From a virus: a stretch of DNA of 27,987 bases. Positions 1,310-24,812 of the stretch are shown here, piece by piece. Location of the stretch: positions 1-27,987 of the IMG/VR virus record IMGVR_UViG_3300035698_003246; one strand, given 5' to 3'. The notes below the pieces were generated by a model that saw only the letters and a program-made list of their open reading frames with translations, was not told the origin of the DNA and searched no databases. Made by a program: the position numbers and the translations under genes. The stretch's first letter is position 1. Each line of letters opens with the position of its first letter.

Positions 1310-1519
1310 TTATGTTTTATTTAATCGAGATCGAGATCTAGAACCAGCCCCAGACCCAGACCTAGACCAAGAACCAGAACCAGCCCCAGACCTAGACCAA
1401 GCCCCAGCCCCAGACCTAGACCAAGAACCAGAAACAGAAACAGAACCAGACCCAGACCAAGAACCAGAAACAGAACCAGAACCAGACCCAGCTTTTCCAT
1501 ACCCTTTACCTCTAATCAT
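1310..1519 (-). CDS. Glycine/serine dipeptide-repeat small protein
   Basis: This is a 69-residue reading frame starting MIRGKGYGKAGSGSGS. After the first ten residues, almost every second codon is TCT (Ser) and alternates with GGT, GGG, TGG, GTT or AGG. The result is a low-complexity G/S-rich chain with scattered W and R, ending SRSRSRLNKT. The ATG overlaps the stop of the upstream gene by eight bases, so translational coupling is possible; its own SD is poor. The repeat is hexameric in DNA, so several frames stay open. The leftward frame is preferred because it fits the operon spacing and direction. I recall Gly-rich repeat microproteins near pentapeptide genes in other phages, but the function is unknown. 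Confidence 0.5.
   Translation of the reverse strand: MIRGKGYGKAGSGSGSVSGSWSGSGSVSVSGSWSRSGAGAWSRSGAGSGSWSRSGSGAGSRSRSRLNKT
1321..1497 (-). repeat. Imperfect hexanucleotide tandem repeat
   Basis: The stretch is built of imperfect six-base units: CCAGAC, CCAGAA, CCTAGA and CCAAGA-like on the plus strand, GGTTCT, GGGTCT, TGGTCT on the coding strand. Higher-order blocks recur, for example the unit reading TCTTGGTCTAGGTCTGGG. The array codes for alternating serine and variable residues in the small G/S protein. Such arrays are prone to slippage, so length may vary between relatives. Confidence 0.85.
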
Positions 1520-1801: not shown

Positions 1802-1818
1802 TGCCTTACTAGGCTTTA
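1802..1818 (-). promoter_or_regulatory. Repeated hairpin leader element, copy 1
   Basis: Read leftward, the sequence is TAAAGCCTAGTAAGGCA, followed at once by CTGGAGAAACA and the start codon at 1790. GCCT and AGGC can pair around an AGTA loop, placing a small hairpin just before the SD. The element also supplies the TAA stop of the pentapeptide gene upstream. The same core occurs at three other sites in the block. Confidence 0.8.
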
Positions 1819-2268
1819 ATTAATCTTTGCATCAAACTCTAATATAGCTATCTGTCTAGCATCAAACTTAGCTTCACGAAGATCAGCTTCACGAAGATCA
1901 GCTTCACGAAGATCAGCTTCACGAAGATCAGCTCCACGAAGATTAGCTCCACGAAGATCAGCTCCACGAAGATCAGCTTCATAAAGATCAGCTTCATAAA
2001 GATCAGCTTCACGAAGATCAGCTTCACGAAGATCAGCTTCACGAAGATTAGCTTCACGAAGATCAGCTCCACGAAGATTAGCTCCACGAAGATCAGCTTC
2101 ACGAAGATCAGCTTCATAAAGATCAGCTTCACGAAGATTAGCTTCACGAAGATCAGCTTCACGAAGATTAGCTCCACGAAGATCAGCTTCACGAAGATTA
2201 GCTCCACGAAGTACGTCACCATCAACTTCTTTTAATACGTAACGTGTAAATATGTGTTTAATTTTCAT
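1816..2268 (-). CDS. Pentapeptide-repeat protein
   Basis: The protein has 150 residues. After about 18 leading residues (MKIKHIFTRYVLKEVDGD) it consists of more than twenty near-perfect pentapeptides of the form A(D/N)L(R/Y)(E/G), ending DARQIAILEFDAKIN. Such repeats fold as a right-handed four-sided beta helix. Some family members (Qnr, MfpA) mimic DNA and bind gyrase, so interference with or protection of a DNA-acting host enzyme is a reasonable guess but is not shown. The repeats are almost identical at DNA level, which indicates recent expansion. The start has a GGAGAAAGAA SD and the hairpin leader directly upstream. Confidence 0.9.
   Translation of the reverse strand: MKIKHIFTRYVLKEVDGDVLRGANLREADLRGANLREADLREANLREADLYEADLREADLRGANLRGADLREANLREADLREADLREADLYEADLYEADLRGADLRGANLRGADLREADLREADLREADLREAKFDARQIAILEFDAKIN
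1869..2211 (-). repeat. 15-bp tandem repeat coding pentapeptides
   Basis: About 23 copies of a 15-base unit of the type CACGAAGATCAGCTT (plus strand) run head to tail without spacers, each coding one pentapeptide. Variant positions are few (CAC or CAT, GATC or GATT, TTC or TCC) and recur in blocks, which suggests expansion by unequal recombination. Confidence 0.95.
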
Positions 2269-4095: not shown

Positions 4096-4761
4096 CTAAA
4101 TATCCCTATTAAATATATGTTCTGGGCCAAAGTACTCTAAGAAGTTTTCTTCTCTATTAATAAACCTAATCCAAAACTTGCTGTCTAAGTCTTTCAACTG
4201 TAACCACAATATGTTTTTAGCGCTAGTATTGTCTTGGGACACTGTACTTATTACATATAGATAAAACATGAAAGTCTCAAATATACTTGTGTCCTGGCCA
4301 GAGACAGATTTAACATAATATCTGTCGTGCCAGAAAAGTCTGAAAACTATTGGGTAAGCAGGAAGTATTTTATTCTGCCAAACATGGTTTCTATGCTTCC
4401 CCTTCAAACTCCAAACTTCTTTAAGCTGATGTATTAAAGGATATTTAGTTTGGCTATATCCGTAAAATCTCCAGTCGAAGTGATCTAGCCATTTCCAATG
4501 TAGAAATCCTAAACTCACCATTCCTATAATTTCATCTCTGGACATAGGAGGCTCTTGCATACCTGGTAGTCTATTAAGTTGCTCATAGTTAGAAGGAATT
4601 TCCAAACATCCCTTGTAAGTTTCAAATAATAACTGCCTATTTGTCGGAAGTCCTAGTTGATTAGCGTAAGATGAGTAGATCCATCCATTGTTCGAGCTAG
4701 GCTCATTATTCGTAGACGGCTTGTCGTGATACATGCCGTATTTGCAAACGTAGTTATTCAT
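4096..4761 (-). CDS. Conserved phage protein of unknown function (221 aa)
   Basis: This aromatic-rich protein starts MNNYVCKYGMYHDKPSTNN. A central stretch, EPPMSRDEIIGMVSLG, resembles a phrase I associate with uncharacterised phage proteins of similar size (MSxDE followed by a Gly-rich helix). Tryptophans and tyrosines are abundant (LHWKWLDHFDWRFYGY; LKDLDSKFWIRF). There is no signal peptide, and the hydrophobic stretch FETFMFYLYVISTV is probably a buried helix rather than a membrane anchor. The start overlaps the stop of the small membrane-protein gene as ATGA, with AAAGGAAA as SD. It could be structural or a host-takeover protein; the sequence does not decide. Confidence 0.75.
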   Translation of the reverse strand: MNNYVCKYGMYHDKPSTNNEPSSNNGWIYSSYANQLGLPTNRQLLFETYKGCLEIPSNYEQLNRLPGMQEPPMSRDEIIGMVSLGFLHWKWLDHFDWRFYGYSQTKYPLIHQLKEVWSLKGKHRNHVWQNKILPAYPIVFRLFWHDRYYVKSVSGQDTSIFETFMFYLYVISTVSQDNTSAKNILWLQLKDLDSKFWIRFINREENFLEYFGPEHIFNRDI

Positions 4762-7634: not shown

Positions 7635-8188
7635 TTTCCCTCCATTTATGTTTTTTTCGAAGCTATCATCGAAATACTTGCGAAGTCTACTATAAAAGCA
7701 ATTGAGGTAAAAAATACATTGAATGTCGAAAAAGGGTAAAAAGGGGGCAAAATAGGCTAAAAACGCCTAAAACGAAAAGTAGTCAAAATAGCTAAAAAAT
7801 GGTGTTTTTGGGTGTTTCTTGACGACATATCATAGACTTATTAGCTTTTACGCGGAGCGCGTGTGGTTTCACTAGTTACATCGTACTGTTATTTACTTTT
7901 TCTTTTATTTTTAAAGTTTTTCTCGACAAGTGCAACAAAAAAAAGGTTCTTGATTTGACGTTGCGTTAGGATTATTTACCTACTCGAAGAGAAAAACTTT
8001 GACCTGGCCTCGATAATTATTGTTTTGAAAGTTTGAGGTGGTCGGGTGATATGGCCTGATGAATTGTTTAGGCTTTCCTAGTATGAGTGATCTCTCGTTC
8101 GGAATATTACAAAATGTAGAATTTAAGATTATGCTAGGCATCTCATAAAGTAAATAGTAGATTTAAAAAATACATGGAGGAGTCGGAA
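7635..8188. other. Divergent intergenic control region
   Basis: No gene is seen in these roughly 550 bases between the leftward and rightward blocks. The left part is A-rich, with two related tracts (ATAGGCTAAAAA and ATAGCTAAAAAA); the first is part of a stem TAGGC/GCCTA at 7753-7769. A palindrome ACGCG-GAG-CGCGT lies at 7850-7862. A possible promoter for the small terminase gene is TTACAA (8107-8112), 17 bases, TATGCT (8130-8135), but the -35 is weak. The region should hold promoters for both directions and could hold the replication origin, because the helicase and a likely DNA-binding protein flank it. Confidence 0.6.
7819..7862 (+). promoter_or_regulatory. Possible rightward promoter with palindromic operator
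   Basis: TTGACG (7819-7824) is followed after 17 bases by TAGCTT (7842-7847), which keeps the TA and final T of a -10 box. The predicted start falls inside the 5-bp inverted repeat ACGCG-GAG-CGCGT, an unusually GC-rich spot in A/T-rich surroundings and a natural place for a repressor to bind. The -10 is weak, so this is tentative. Confidence 0.25.
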
Positions 8189-8524
8189 ATGAAACTAACT
8201 AAGCAAGAGAAAGTCTACTGGGATATTTACTACGAAGATATTTCTATCAGAGAAAACTTTAAAAAGAGTCATGAGCAACAATTAAAGGTATTGTGTGAAC
8301 TCCACGTGGAGGCAGATGAGCTCCGAGGGATTATATCCTTAGTTGGGTATACCTTTTCAACTGGAGATGGCAGAAACGGAGATCAAGAGAAGCTCAGACC
8401 TGAAGTAGTTCAGCTTAATAAGGTTAGAGCAGAGATTAGGGGATACCATAAGATCCTAGGCCTAGTTCTATACAAGGATGTCAAAACTAATGAAGTCGAA
8501 GAAGAGGAAGAAGATTGGAGTTGA
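8189..8524 (+). CDS. terS: Terminase small subunit, P27-like
   Basis: The product should recognise phage DNA and hand it to the large terminase for packaging. The start at 8189 (MKLTKQEKVYWDIYY) is chosen over the ATG at 8174 because GGAGGAG lies six bases before it. The 111 residues match the P27 layout: a helical region with LKVLCELHVEADELRG, a glycine-containing turn, the segment RPEVVQLNKVRAEIRGYHK, the phrase ILGLV near the end, and an acidic tail (EVEEEEEDW). It is the first gene of the rightward block with the large subunit two genes downstream, as expected. The sequence match is moderate. Confidence 0.75.
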   Translation: MKLTKQEKVYWDIYYEDISIRENFKKSHEQQLKVLCELHVEADELRGIISLVGYTFSTGDGRNGDQEKLRPEVVQLNKVRAEIRGYHKILGLVLYKDVKTNEVEEEEEDWS

Positions 8525-8684
8525 GTTAAAGACTCTTGAATATGGAGAGTTAGAGCTAATTGTGGAGATTGGTAAGAAGATCTTCCACATAAATGGTTTT
8601 AGTAAAGAAGAGCTCTTTGAGGAGCTTGGTAAATATGTCTCTCAAGAAACTGCGGAGACTGTCAAAAAGGAATTATATGAATAA
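8478..8684 (+). CDS. Small protein of unknown function
   Basis: This 68-residue reading frame overlaps the end of the small terminase gene by 47 bases and the start of the lipoprotein gene by eight. It starts with a basic stretch (MSKLMKSKKRKK) followed by a strand (LELIVEIGKKIFHI) and acidic helices (SKEELFEELGKYVSQ). No SD is well placed: AAGG directly abuts the first ATG, and a second ATG four codons later (8490) is equally possible. Translation may be coupled to the upstream gene. Function unknown. Confidence 0.6.
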   Translation: MSKLMKSKKRKKIGVELKTLEYGELELIVEIGKKIFHINGFSKEELFEELGKYVSQETAETVKKELYE

Positions 8685-9243
8685 GTTAATACTAGCTCTT
8701 GTGGCCCCTCTAGGCCTGGCCTCATGTCTTACATCATTTAAGACAAAGAAACCTATTGTAGTTGATCCTGTGATAGATCCGGTGGTTATTATTGTAGAAG
8801 CTCCGGTATCAGAAACATTCCACACAGAAGTTAGTTCTGAATGGGCCAATGAGACAGTCAGAGTTTCTAATTGTGTTTTAAATCATCCAGAATTTAAGAA
8901 GAAAGTTGAATCTATTGAGAAATTTGATTACTCAGATCTTAATGGAGTTCAAGTTTATGCGAAATATGCCAATGGGAGTAAATGTGGCCTACGACTATAT
9001 AAGACAAAAAATCCTTGGAGTTCAGCAATTGCAACTACATACGGAAGTGACAAAGAGTTTTTTTACTTAAACAGTAGAAGAAATCCTAGAACTTATGGAT
9101 CGATGGTTAATACGAGTATTCATGAGTGCGGGCATCTTAAAGGTTTTTCTCATGGAGATAATAGTCCAAAAGGAAAAGAGAACTCAGTTAATTATAAAGT
9201 TGGCTCAATTGCTCAGGATGTTTCTTCAAAATGTCTAAAATAG
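8677..9243 (+). CDS. Lipoprotein with metzincin-type zinc-protease motif
   Basis: The start at 8677 (MNKLILALVAPLGLASC) is chosen because AAGGAATTAT precedes it and because it gives a clean type II signal peptide with lipobox LASC and lipid-anchored C17. A proline/valine-rich linker follows (residues 26-43). The mature part carries HECGHLKGFSH at residues 149-159, an exact HExxHxxGxxH zinc-binding signature with E150 as the catalytic base. Four further cysteines could form disulfides. The protein should be exported and membrane-anchored in the infected cell. An outer-surface or periplasmic peptidase acting on a host protein, on peptidoglycan cross-bridges, or in superinfection control would fit. 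Its place between the terminase genes is unusual for such a protein. The zinc motif is certain and the substrate unknown. Confidence 0.8.
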   Translation: MNKLILALVAPLGLASCLTSFKTKKPIVVDPVIDPVVIIVEAPVSETFHTEVSSEWANETVRVSNCVLNHPEFKKKVESIEKFDYSDLNGVQVYAKYANGSKCGLRLYKTKNPWSSAIATTYGSDKEFFYLNSRRNPRTYGSMVNTSIHECGHLKGFSHGDNSPKGKENSVNYKVGSIAQDVSSKCLK

Positions 9244-10928
9244 ATAAGAAGAAATACCCATTTTGTGCGATCGGCCATCAGTATGCTCTAGATGTTGTAT
9301 CTGAGGAAATTACTGCGAACATCTACATAATAGGTTCTTGTAAAAGATACTTGGAGCATTTCAGAGTTTGGAGTGAAGCCCCAGTCCTGGCAAAGTACTA
9401 TCTAGATTTAGATAGAGCTGAGAAGTATTTAAGAATAGTCCAGAAGTTCGAACATGTAATCGGTAAGTGGAATCCGAAGCATATTAAATACGAGCCTTGG
9501 CAGAATTTTACATTCTTAAATATAATAGGTTGGTACAATAGAGATACAGGTTATCGTAAATACAGGATAGCCCATGTCGAAGTTGCCCGTGGGTGCGGTA
9601 AGTCATTGATGGCATCTCAGGCAGGACTTTACTTTCTGTCCTTCGACTCTCCGCTTGGAAATAAAGTGGCCTGTGTCGCTTCAAGAAAAGAACAGGCTAG
9701 AATTGTTCTAGACTCTTCAAGGGCAATGGCCAAGAAATCTAAGGCGTATTTAAAAAAGACAGGAGTTCAAGTCCTGGCCCATAAAATAGTTAATGATTCT
9801 ACATTCTCAGAGATGCGAGCTCTATCTGCAGATAGTGATGGACTAGACGGACTTAACGACATTCTAGCAATATGTGATGAGTTACATGTAATGAAGAAAG
9901 CAGTCTTTGACGTTATCTACTCAGGGATGTCAAAAAGAAAAGACTCACTAACTCTGTGCATAACTACTGCAGGTTTTGATATGGAGAGTGTTGGATATAG
10001 TCAGTCAGTTTATGCAAAGAAAGTTGCCACTGGGGATTACGAAGACGAGCAATTCTTCTCACTTCCGTATACTTTAGATAAAGACGACGACATTTTTGAT
10101 CCGAGTGTTTGGATCAAGGCCAATCCAAATTACGGAGTTTCTGTAGATCCTTTGACTTTTGAGGCCAAGGCCAAGAAAGCTAAAGTCACTCCAAGTGATG
10201 TGGGAAACTTCAAAGTAAAGCATTTAAACATCTGGCTTTCAGAGGCCAATGCGTTTTTTAATATGAGCAAATGGGATAAATGTGCAGATCATACTTTAAA
10301 TCAAGAAGACTTTCAAGGACTTAGCGGATACATCGGATTAGACCTCGCGTCTAAAATAGATTTAACTGGATTAGTTTCGATGGTAGAGAAAGACGGTATC
10401 TACTATATTTTCGAGAAAGCATACATTCCAGAAGAAAGAGTAAAAGAACTTAACATGCCGCTCTATACTGATTCTGTTGGAGATGGGTTCTTGGTGTCCA
10501 CTACAGGTGAGGTAATTAATTATCCAAAACTTCAGGAAGACTTTAAAGAGCTATGTTTTAAGAAGTTAAAAGTTAAAGAAGCTTTTTACGATCCCTGGAA
10601 CGCGACAGAGTTTTCTCAGAGAATGTTGGCCGAGAGAATTAATATGGTAGAGTTTAGAATGAATGTCGCCAATCTGTCTGAGGCCATGAAGTGGCTAGGT
10701 GCGAAAATAATAGAGGGCAAAGTTCGCCATAACGGAAGTCCTCTATTAAGATGGTGTATGTCGAATGTTGTGGCCAAAGTAGACGGAAATGATAATGTAT
10801 ATCCAAGAAAGAGCCATGAGAAACTTAAAATCGATTTAGCGATTGCTTTAATTATGGCCAGTGCAGGGTATATGCAGGAGTCCCAAAAGAAGTCTGTTTA
10901 TGCCACAAGAGGAATAAGAGTTCTTTAA
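9231..10928 (+). CDS. terL: Terminase large subunit
   Basis: The 565-residue motor pumps DNA into the prohead and cuts it. The ATPase domain shows Walker A VARGCGKS at residues 118-125 and Walker B ICDE at 214-217, followed by a coupling motif region (LTLCITTAGFD). The nuclease domain has its first acidic residue in GLDLASKIDLTGL, a second acidic segment at EAFYDPWNATEF, and a third in LKIDLAIALIMA. This is the HK97/lambdoid Terminase_1 arrangement. The gene overlaps the lipoprotein gene by 13 bases. The length is normal for the family. Confidence 0.95.
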   Translation: MSKIDKKKYPFCAIGHQYALDVVSEEITANIYIIGSCKRYLEHFRVWSEAPVLAKYYLDLDRAEKYLRIVQKFEHVIGKWNPKHIKYEPWQNFTFLNIIGWYNRDTGYRKYRIAHVEVARGCGKSLMASQAGLYFLSFDSPLGNKVACVASRKEQARIVLDSSRAMAKKSKAYLKKTGVQVLAHKIVNDSTFSEMRALSADSDGLDGLNDILAICDELHVMKKAVFDVIYSGMSKRKDSLTLCITTAGFDMESVGYSQSVYAKKVATGDYEDEQFFSLPYTLDKDDDIFDPSVWIKANPNYGVSVDPLTFEAKAKKAKVTPSDVGNFKVKHLNIWLSEANAFFNMSKWDKCADHTLNQEDFQGLSGYIGLDLASKIDLTGLVSMVEKDGIYYIFEKAYIPEERVKELNMPLYTDSVGDGFLVSTTGEVINYPKLQEDFKELCFKKLKVKEAFYDPWNATEFSQRMLAERINMVEFRMNVANLSEAMKWLGAKIIEGKVRHNGSPLLRWCMSNVVAKVDGNDNVYPRKSHEKLKIDLAIALIMASAGYMQESQKKSVYATRGIRVL

Positions 10929-15305: not shown

Positions 15306-17087
15306 TTGAAGCAAGAAATACTACTAGCACTTGTCAAAAAGATTGTTGACAGGTCAATTACAGATATACAGCTATCCCCAGGCCCACGTGGTTTGAGAGG
15401 ACATGCAGGTTTAGACGGAAGTAATTTCGATCTGTCTGAACACATAGAGTCTATCCTAGCTTCAATCCCACCTTTAAAATTAAGTGAAAAACAAATAGAA
15501 GAGTTGACCGGAAGGCCAGGCCCAGAAGGTGATGTAGGTCAAGACGGGTCTCGTGGCCCAAGAGGTTATAGAGGAGAGGACGGAAACGATTTCTACCTCC
15601 AAGATCATATTCAAAATATAATAGACGCTCTCCCTCCAGTAGAACTTTCTGAAGAACAAAGACAGTCCTTGATTGGCCCACGTGGTAAACAAGGAATAGG
15701 ATTTCTATGGGAAGAGAATAGCGAAGAGATAACTTCAATACTAAATTCGTACCTAATAGAAAATAAAGAAGACCTCAAACTTAAATTTTCAGATCTTAAT
15801 GAAGAAGAGATATTCACTTTAAAAGGTGAGCGTGGCCCACGTGGTCAAAGAGGTAAGAGCGGAGATGACGGACTAAAAGGTACAGACGGAAAAGACTTCT
15901 CTTTCGAGGAATCAAGAGAAAACATATCTGCCTTGGTAGTTGAGAATAAAGAAGACCTAAAACTAAAGTTCAAAGATTTAAGTAAAGAAGAGATAGAAGA
16001 ACTTAAACTTAAATTCGATCACCTAACTGAAGACGAGAGATTCTTACTTAGAGGTTCTCGAGGACAGAAAGGTAGTCGCGGAGATAAAGGCGACAACGGA
16101 GATAAGGGAGAGACTGGATCTATCGGGATGCGCGGTATTCCAGGAGTCCAAGGAGTTCGAGGTTTAAAAGGCCAAGACGGAAAAGACGGAAGAGATGGAA
16201 GAGATGGTAGAGACGCGGCAGAAGTAGAAGAGATCTCACTAGATAAAAACAAAGATGAAATATCCTTAGAGTTCGAGTTCACAGACGGTACTCGTATAAA
16301 AACCAATTCAGTAAAACTTCCTAAATCTACAAACAATACTTTCGCACCAATGTCGGGAGGCGGCGGTGGTGGGGGAAGTGGGAGCGGCGGCGGCATATCT
16401 GAAGTAGGTATAGAGAAAGACGGAGTAGTAGTAGGGGGATCTGAGAACATAAACTTTGTTGGAGACAACATAGATGTTTCTTACGACGAGACTACAAAAA
16501 CTTCAAGCGTTTCAGTAGAAACTTGTATTCCAGTTTTTGACGAAGGACTCGCAGTAACGGATTGTCTAAAGTCAGTTAACTTTGTCGGAGACTATGTAAC
16601 AGTACAAAGTCTAACCAAGATGGCAGACTGGCTATCGCTAGATGACGTAGTTCCTTCAATCGGTGCTTACGAAGTTACTAGCCCAGGATATGTAGAAGTA
16701 TCTGTTTCTAACCCTGTAGATGTTCCAGTACCGAAGCTTTCAGTAAATAAAATATATGGAGAGTCTATATCGGCTCTTAAACTAGTAGTTGCCTCTAGTC
16801 CTACAGAAGTAGTTCTAGGAGACATAGACTCGTATACAAACTCTAGGGTTCTAGGGTTAAGCACAGAAGCGGGACTTATATCGGAAACACATCCAATTCT
16901 CATTTTAGGAATAGCGGACGATATTTCTTTTAACTATCCAGTAAATACGCCCTTGTTTCTTGGAAGCGGTGGGGATATAACAGATACTCCAACAACTATC
17001 TCGGGAGAGTTTATAACTGAAATTGGGTACTCTCTAGGAGCAGGATCTATTTTCATTAGCATTTCCGAGCCAATGGAGATCTTATGA
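15306..17087 (+). CDS. Large collagen-like fibre protein
   Basis: This 593-residue protein starts at TTG with AGGTGG as SD. It alternates short helical modules with the pattern KLS-E-I-L-G (IPPLKLSEKQIEELTGRPG; LPPVELSEEQRQSLIGPRG; LKLKFSDLNEEEIFTLKGERG) with blocks of Gly-X-Y triplets. The longest triplet block, near residues 250-305, contains GDKGDNGDKGETG and GKDGRDGRDGRD. A Gly/Ser linker (GGGGGGGSGSGGG, about 352-364) precedes a beta-rich C-terminal half. It should form a trimeric triple-helical stalk with a C-terminal domain. Because it stands between portal and connector genes, a head or neck fibre is as likely as a tail fibre. Confidence 0.85.
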   Translation: MKQEILLALVKKIVDRSITDIQLSPGPRGLRGHAGLDGSNFDLSEHIESILASIPPLKLSEKQIEELTGRPGPEGDVGQDGSRGPRGYRGEDGNDFYLQDHIQNIIDALPPVELSEEQRQSLIGPRGKQGIGFLWEENSEEITSILNSYLIENKEDLKLKFSDLNEEEIFTLKGERGPRGQRGKSGDDGLKGTDGKDFSFEESRENISALVVENKEDLKLKFKDLSKEEIEELKLKFDHLTEDERFLLRGSRGQKGSRGDKGDNGDKGETGSIGMRGIPGVQGVRGLKGQDGKDGRDGRDGRDAAEVEEISLDKNKDEISLEFEFTDGTRIKTNSVKLPKSTNNTFAPMSGGGGGGGSGSGGGISEVGIEKDGVVVGGSENINFVGDNIDVSYDETTKTSSVSVETCIPVFDEGLAVTDCLKSVNFVGDYVTVQSLTKMADWLSLDDVVPSIGAYEVTSPGYVEVSVSNPVDVPVPKLSVNKIYGESISALKLVVASSPTEVVLGDIDSYTNSRVLGLSTEAGLISETHPILILGIADDISFNYPVNTPLFLGSGGDITDTPTTISGEFITEIGYSLGAGSIFISISEPMEIL

Positions 17088-23144: not shown

Positions 23145-23593
23145 GTTCACAATCAGTAGTTGACCGAGTTACTACATTTATAAATACAAACTTTCCTGCC
23201 GAGCCTTTAGTAGATCTAACTGCAGAGTTTAGAAATCTTCAAGATTTATTAGACTCTCACGGAGTAGGGAGAAACGATGCTTGGCTAGGGATACAGTTTA
23301 TCGGAAACGACGAACTACCTATTTCACTTTCAGCAACTAACAACTCCGGTAAGTACCGAGAGTTAGGAGCAATTTACATTCATGTTGTCGGAGTAGCTGC
23401 CATCAATGCAGCTTCGGGAATAAGAGCAAGAGCAGATGCTTTACGAGTAGGACTTCGTGGGCAGAACATTTCAGGAGTGAGAATAGAGTCAGTAACTCCT
23501 GCCAACTTCAATGCAGGAGCAACTCTCCAATTTGAAGGAGGTTGGACTGGGGCCAGCGTCATAGCTGCTTACGAGTCAGACATTGACTTATAG
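23141..23593 (+). CDS. Tail terminator protein
   Basis: The 150-residue protein should form the hexameric ring that stops tail-tube growth and joins tail to head. It has the expected layout: an N-terminal helix (VVDRVTTFINTNFP), a strand with WLGIQFIG, a central strand-rich region YRELGAIYIHVVGVAA followed by the helix GIRARADALRVGLRG, and a last strand GGWTGASVIAAYESDI. This matches DUF4128/gpU-like terminators. ATGA overlap with the preceding gene indicates coupling. Confidence 0.75.
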   Translation: MSSQSVVDRVTTFINTNFPAEPLVDLTAEFRNLQDLLDSHGVGRNDAWLGIQFIGNDELPISLSATNNSGKYRELGAIYIHVVGVAAINAASGIRARADALRVGLRGQNISGVRIESVTPANFNAGATLQFEGGWTGASVIAAYESDIDL

Positions 23594-23636
23594 AGAATAA
23601 AAATAAAAAATAATAATAACAATCAAGGAGAAGGTT

Positions 23637-24812
23637 ATGAGTAGTTCAAATTTAGTTAGACTGGCATATATAAAAGAGTCAGTTCTTGGGGAAACTCCAG
23701 GGGCAGGAGACTTCGACACATTTCGTTTTATAAGTGAGTCTTTATCTGGAACTCCAGATACTACAGAAAGTCAGCAAATACGTACAGACAGAATGTCTAG
23801 TGGTCAAGTAGTTACAGGACTTCAAGTTCAAGGGGACAAGTCTTTTGAATTAGCAAAAGAGAGTCAACTAGAAGATTTTATGGAAAGTGCTATGCAGTCT
23901 TTATTCGCTGCAGGAGCTTCACTATCTGAAACTTTCACTATCGATAATGTCTCTAAGACTATCGTTAGAGGGTCAGGAGATTATCTTGCAGACGGAGTTA
24001 AAGTTGGAGACATCGTAGTAGGAACTGGATTTACAGATCCTCTAAATGCCGAGCCAGTAATGGTTAGACTAGTAGACGCTACAACAATTACTTATGTTGG
24101 AGAGTTAGTAGATGTTTCTGAAGTTGCTCTTCTAGATGTTTCTTCTAATGTTGGGATCGGAATTGACAAACATTCTTTCTCAATCGAGAAAACATTCCTA
24201 GACTTAACTGACAAAGCTATTCTTTATAGAGGTATGTTAGCAAACACTATGCAACTTTCAGTTTCATACGGAGAAATTATAAACGGATCTTTCGGTCTAG
24301 TAGGAACTAAATATGAAGCTGTTTCTGGTGCTGCTAATTTTATTACAGATGGCAGGACTATTCTGCCTCCTGCGACTACTCAGTCATTAAATGGTTCTAT
24401 TGATATGCCATTCTTAGCTTCGAGTGCCGTAGGTACTTTAGACGAAGTTTCTTTCTGTATTCAGTCAGTAGAGCTTAACTTAAATAACAACCTTATCGCT
24501 CAAAACTGTATCGGGGAAGCCGCTGCAGTAGACTATAGTGCAGGAACAGCTCAGATAGAAGTTTCAATCTCAGCTTACTTAAGTGATGAGAACTGGGCAA
24601 TACTAGGGAAGAAATTGACTCAAGAGTCTTTCTCTCTTGGATTCATGGTTAAGAACTTAGACGGATGGTATTATTTCTACCTACCTGCAGTTCAGGTTTC
24701 TTTTGACGATCCTGCAAGTGGTGGTGCTAACCAAGATGTTATTCTTGATATGAGCGGAACTGCGAAAGTAGGATCTCTTGGTGAGTCTGCTTTAAGAATT
24801 TATAAATCATAG
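23637..24812 (+). CDS. Major tail tube protein
   Basis: The 391-residue protein is a phage tube protein of the Phage_tube_2 type. The N-terminus SNLVRLAYIKESVLGETPGA, the phrase SQQIRTDRMSSGQVVTGLQV and the helix ESQLEDFMESAM are typical. It has an inserted domain around residues 97-165 (SETFTIDNVSKTIVRGSGD and following) and the final strands GGANQDVILDMSGTAKV. Rings of it stack to form the hollow tube around the tape measure. A strong AAGGAGAAGG SD and a following terminator fit high expression. No sheath gene is adjacent, supporting a non-contractile tail. Confidence 0.85.
   Translation: MSSSNLVRLAYIKESVLGETPGAGDFDTFRFISESLSGTPDTTESQQIRTDRMSSGQVVTGLQVQGDKSFELAKESQLEDFMESAMQSLFAAGASLSETFTIDNVSKTIVRGSGDYLADGVKVGDIVVGTGFTDPLNAEPVMVRLVDATTITYVGELVDVSEVALLDVSSNVGIGIDKHSFSIEKTFLDLTDKAILYRGMLANTMQLSVSYGEIINGSFGLVGTKYEAVSGAANFITDGRTILPPATTQSLNGSIDMPFLASSAVGTLDEVSFCIQSVELNLNNNLIAQNCIGEAAAVDYSAGTAQIEVSISAYLSDENWAILGKKLTQESFSLGFMVKNLDGWYYFYLPAVQVSFDDPASGGANQDVILDMSGTAKVGSLGESALRIYKS

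Follow-up and report, generated by a model that had tools for sequence, protein, structure and literature searches.

By analogy, the closest functional precedent for the gene described here is the phage-derived Mtz/Tim pair of Listeria, in which Mtz cleaves the lipoprotein Tim, and the expression of which increases phage-mediated lysis in a manner dependent on Mtz proteolysis (PMC8235301). Two further systems may be taken as precedents for its two halves, i.e. an exclusion lipoprotein and a lipoprotein-depleting HExxH peptidase: receptor-blocking lipoproteins have been described in phages, with T5 Llp blocking FhuA by binding (PMC9586334), and the C-terminal peptidase of the type VI effector VgrG2b carries an HExxH motif, is periplasmic and depletes lipoproteins from membranes (PMC6899460). 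No description of both halves in one phage lipoprotein was found in searches of an open-access library.

The locus studied here encodes a predicted lipoprotein that, like Mtz/Tim, combines a phage-derived, putatively exported peptidase bearing HExxHxxGxxH/D with an accessory gene, a presumed action at the envelope and the involvement of a lipoprotein; Mtz itself has a plain signal peptide, the Met-turn AIMLD, a Gram-positive host, a gene downstream of the holin-lysin genes and a separate lipoprotein partner (PMC8235301), whereas here the peptidase and the lipid anchor would reside in one protein and no paired partner was seen. Like T5 Llp and other exclusion lipoproteins, the product is a small phage-encoded lipoprotein predicted at the host envelope, but Llp is without an enzyme motif (PMC9586334). 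With VgrG2b it shares an HExxH peptidase predicted at the periplasmic side, while VgrG2b differs in its secretion-spike delivery, DUF4157 annotation, cognate immunity protein and toxicity to prey cells (PMC6899460).

The window, i.e. the whole stretch of DNA analysed, is an entire IMG/VR virus record of 27,987 bases, and from our reading of its gene content the record ends within a tape-measure-like gene. The features at the locus are the following:

8174..8524, + strand: TerS, small terminase subunit (PF05119, E 2.4e-5, 25.1 bits versus a cut-off of 24.7)
8478..8684, + strand: putative gene of 68 aa between TerS and the peptidase, from the ORF list
8667..8671, + strand: Shine-Dalgarno sequence AAGGA, 5 nt ahead of the ATG at 8677
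8677..9243, + strand: predicted exported, lipid-anchored zincin-like peptidase, 188 aa, from the sequence, homologues and a structure model
8677..8727, + strand: type II signal peptide, MNKLILALVAPLGLASC, with lipobox LASC at residues 14-17 and predicted lipidated Cys17
8728..8838, + strand: tether, residues 18-54, of low AlphaFold confidence over most of its length
8839..9240, + strand: peptidase domain, residues 55-188 (AlphaFold pLDDT 88.7, pTM 0.83 for the trimmed domain)
8872..8874, + strand: Cys66, one half of a cysteine pair found in 6/6 exported and 0/3 non-exported members
9121..9153, + strand: HECGHLKGFSH, residues 149-159, with predicted zinc ligands H149, H153 and H159 and predicted catalytic E150
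9232..9234, + strand: Cys186, the other half of the pair, with the same distribution (6/6 exported, 0/3 non-exported)
9231..10928, + strand: TerL, large terminase subunit (PF03354, E 2.1e-27; PF20441, E 1.2e-48)

The genes are ordered TerS, small ORF, peptidase and TerL in a tightly overlapping operon, followed downstream of TerL by Clp-type head protease, capsid and portal genes. The placement between the terminase genes given in the original prediction thus stood, with a TerS call only slightly above the PF05119 cut-off, except that the 68-aa ORF, which matched nothing in PHROG or Pfam, also lies in that interval. This ORF shares 8 nt with the start of the peptidase gene, and the TerL start shares 13 nt with its end; a longer peptidase frame from the ATG at 8593 would leave the signal peptide buried. 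A consensus scan of the + strand from TerS to the start of TerL revealed no sigma-70-like promoter, so that, given the overlaps on both sides and the AAGGA before its start, the peptidase is probably produced as part of the packaging operon, which is probably a late one. There is no tRNA in the window.

Elsewhere in the window, a C5 DNA methyltransferase gene (221-1291, - strand) has an apparently permuted motif order, in that the motif IX/X-like RRLTPIECERLQGYPD and CGNGISSPV precede motif I STFSGCGG, PC, ENV and the QxRxR-like SRERVF, and Pfam aligns its residues 187-351 with profile positions 1-166. A low-complexity repeat, GSGSGSWSRSG / LGLVLVLGLG, is open in two frames at 1310-1519 (- strand); a 150-aa pentapeptide-repeat protein (ANLREADLRGADL...) is encoded at 1816-2268 (- strand), where a second frame of the same strand is also open; and a 593-aa protein with collagen-like GxY repeats and a TTG start follows the portal gene (15306-17087, + strand).

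The window protein has the n-region, h-region and lipobox with its Cys that are expected of a bacterial lipoprotein, although its match to the Pfam LPAM_1 model was weak and below the cut-off, and a lipobox is likewise present in three relatives (L064, L051 and L054). The peptidase is therefore predicted from its N-terminus to be lipid-anchored at Cys17, behind which the blocks of the tether as far as residue 50 have a pLDDT of about 47-68. The zinc motif recurred once in 200,000 shuffles of the protein, and HExxHxxGxxH was unchanged in 9/9 homologues compared; together with it, Asn162, Val171 and Tyr173 were kept across all members. Both the LASC signal peptide and HECGHLKGFSH, with E150 as the motif Glu, are as originally described, and they point to an exported, membrane-anchored, protease-like protein rather than a packaging protein.

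Scans of viral contigs, genomes, phages and plasmids with the window protein alone returned nothing, since the family is too divergent for single-protein scans. Relatives were therefore sought in viral contigs by a degenerate DNA pattern for HExxHxxGxxHGD, which led to six IMG/VR records with true exported relatives (L031, L051, L054, L057, L064 and L065; phmmer E 2e-30 to 8e-44 within this small hit set), encoding five distinct proteins, as L054 and L057 yield one and the same protein, at 34-44% identity to the window protein (alignment A1). A second pattern without the HGD letters recovered the same set plus one chance match (L079), and three motif matches in genome contigs were also due to chance. 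No member convincingly matched any Pfam, PHROG, NCBIfam or PADLOC family, the last being a library of defence and not counter-defence genes; by sequence comparison, the putative peptidase belongs to a small phage protein family unlisted in these four collections. Weak matches to SprT, WLM, M54, YbeY and DUF6782 were confined to single members, and a match of one member, over residues 46-96, to superinfection exclusion gp17 (E 0.09-0.12) was at chance level. Family-profile searches found no match in 198 genomes from the phylum of a Desulfatibacillum or in 398 from the phylum of a Nevskiaceae genome, samples that may not include the host phylum; Bdellovibrionota hosts are only our guess, suggested by the lipobox style, a GC content near 38% and the use of Shine-Dalgarno sequences.

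Within the family, export varies while the predicted catalytic motif is conserved: an export signal occurs in 6/6 close members (from our reading of the N-termini, a lipobox in four and a plain signal peptide in two) and the motif in all nine. A 144-aa homologue in L097, L098 and L099 (E 1e-21 to 1e-22), at the site syntenic to that of the exported relatives, starts directly with the first helix of the domain, without a signal peptide, and the homologue in L113, from a different phage context, again lacks one. An unrooted tree split exported from non-exported members at 100/100 support, and in the same unrooted tree the window protein grouped with L064 (87/96). The restriction of the cysteine pair to exported members fits an oxidising compartment. 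The lipid anchor claimed for the window protein is thus not shared by two of the six exported members or by the distant ones, whereas HExxHxxGxxH occurs in every homologue.

AlphaFold2, with six sequences as input, modelled the domain with confidence as helices and short strands followed by an active-site helix (140-154) that carries HExxH, with the third His soon after it and a C-terminal helix at 171-183. The predicted helix 140-154 bears H149-H153 and lies after strands 103-108, 119-121 and 128-132, the zincin arrangement of an HExxH helix behind a small sheet, and on this model the domain is zincin-like.

The genomic context of the family was read from five carrier records taken whole (G003-G007, 32-36 kb), which have some 25 gene families in common and so represent one phage group, and from which the TerL_ATPase family of the window is absent. 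In these carriers, by our reading, the peptidase gene comes after ERF-like, SSB and exonuclease genes, near a RusA-like gene, i.e. in a recombination/replication region and not at the terminase, and it lies outside and convergent to a cassette of endolysin and lipoprotein genes on the opposite strand. The terminase locus is particular to the window phage. The window and G003-G007 share only the peptidase and the window gene at 4096-4761, a relative of which stands two genes upstream of the peptidase in G003. Since the G003-G007 records had been found through the peptidase, a second search used the neighbouring exonuclease, and of the records found in this way, L093 has no peptidase at the syntenic site, while L097, L098 and L099 have the 144-aa homologue there. 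Two small Cys-containing lipoproteins recur in the carriers (in G004 at 29248-29448, - strand, and 23400-23729, + strand, with relatives in other carrier records), one of them close to the recombination genes, the other next to an M15-like endolysin; each could be an exclusion protein, a spanin or a peptidase substrate.

Among ten records with a TerL 49-59% identical to that of the window, several of them short fragments, none gave a peptidase match, while six controls did. Where TerS was visible, the TerS-TerL interval varied: in L002/L003 it holds a DNA methyltransferase together with two small ORFs, and in L009 no gene of appreciable size. The absence from the ten related-TerL records and the carriage by a different phage group indicate, at the level of sequence, that the gene is accessory cargo common to unrelated phages. 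A classical moron would have its own promoter and terminator; the moron-like insertion proposed for this gene agrees with its accessory distribution and the variable interval, but the gene overlaps both neighbours and the consensus scan found no promoter of its own. Several TerL relatives (L006-L009 and L011, 855-917 aa) carry an intein-like insertion at Walker A (RGNGK then AHPLDEIVPTPQG...), which the TerL of the window lacks, and L006 (644-1582, - strand) and L007 (135-1073, + strand), the TerL genes of which are almost identical, share a 312-aa methyltransferase-like gene that lies upstream of TerL in both but is inverted in one relative to the other.

Our preferred though tentative reading is that the gene encodes a lipid-tethered peptidase which cleaves host envelope proteins and alters the surface of the infected cell, for superinfection exclusion or envelope takeover. 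The accessory gene, common to an unrelated phage group, would here be translated within the packaging operon; the product would leave the cytoplasm through Sec, receive a lipid at Cys17 and stay at the host envelope on the flexible tether; and the domain, as a zinc peptidase with ligands H149, H153 and H159 and catalytic E150, would probably cut at least one host envelope protein and thereby change the cell surface, the outcome being exclusion through a damaged receptor or lipoprotein, or some other takeover of the envelope. This reading is placed first, ahead of lysis assistance and then counter-defence, because in the other phage group the gene sits with recombination genes and at a distance from the lysis cassette, and because of the export signal; the invariant motif, the cysteine pair confined to exported members, the absence from the ten related-TerL records and the confidently modelled zincin-like domain on a disordered tether also support it. 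Early action fits as well, given that in the other group the gene comes after SSB- and exonuclease-type genes and away from the endolysin cassette. Against it stand the probably late operon of the window, the lack of a significant fold match and the homologues without a signal peptide that occupy the equivalent syntenic site in related phages, the last of which indicate that an envelope target is not family-wide.

The same probably late operon would suit a lysis helper that weakens the envelope late in infection or activates another lysis protein, as Mtz does in cleaving Tim, and the proteolysis-dependent rise in phage-mediated lysis sets an example (PMC8235301). We consider this unlikely, in that the gene of the other carriers lies beyond the endolysin cassette and converges on it, and no partner gene recurs beside the peptidase; the lysis genes of the window lie outside the record, which ends inside the tape-measure-like gene.

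A peptidase for counter-defence or host takeover, destroying a host defence or regulatory protein, with its exported and non-exported forms hitting different compartments, would account for the non-exported homologues with the same catalytic residues at the syntenic site in recombination-gene operons, and for the accessory distribution. It has no known defence target and no PADLOC match, the latter weak evidence given the contents of that library, and we judge it slightly less likely again.

The original prediction had named the protein a metzincin, and the spacing of HExxHxxGxxH/D at residues 149-159 is that of metzincins; matches below threshold, each confined to a single member, to reprolysin, matrixin, M54 and a metzincin lipoprotein model, and a weak match to a PDB metzincin (E 0.12), lean the same way. 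This identity was not supported, because the Met-turn is missing, no Met following the third His (H159) in 8/9 members, the window protein among them, and no match to metzincin models or structures was significant. Fold searches with the predicted domain also gave no significant match: the top one was the aspzincin 1ge6, the peptidyl-Lys metalloendopeptidase of Grifola frondosa (prob 0.95, TMq 0.53, E 0.13), and the other nearest folds, equally not significant, were IrrE and abylysin, with SprT- and IrrE-type models the best from viral proteins. In aspzincins, Asp is the third zinc ligand, within the motif GTxDxxYG. An aspzincin (M35) identity was rejected as well, GTxDxxYG being absent and D161 not conserved, whereas His159 is invariant in the family. 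The protein is accordingly termed here a predicted zincin with metzincin-like ligand spacing, and not a metzincin. A true metzincin taken from a bacterial host and retained for the benefit of a lysogen is very unlikely, there being, besides, no integrase in the window or the carriers and no bacterial homologue in the sampled genomes, which may not include the host phylum. A chance or decayed ORF without phage function is scarcely credible for an intact frame with a Shine-Dalgarno sequence and overlaps on both sides, a motif invariant across strongly diverged homologues and a confident domain model.

The feature is real, with good support both as a protein family and as cargo of phages; the surprise is moderate, given that phage-derived peptidases with export signals are already known. 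It is possible, if doubtful, that this is a new peptidase family that switches compartment, cytoplasmic among recombination genes in some phages and, in others, a disulfide-bearing, exported, lipid-anchored remodeller of the envelope that acts by cleavage, e.g. excluding superinfection by destroying a receptor. The small size of the domain would permit direct assay, and the exported and non-exported subfamilies at a syntenic place offer a natural comparison for target finding. An enzymatic lipid-anchored peptidase, if true, would be another way for a phage to change the host envelope than the binding of Llp.
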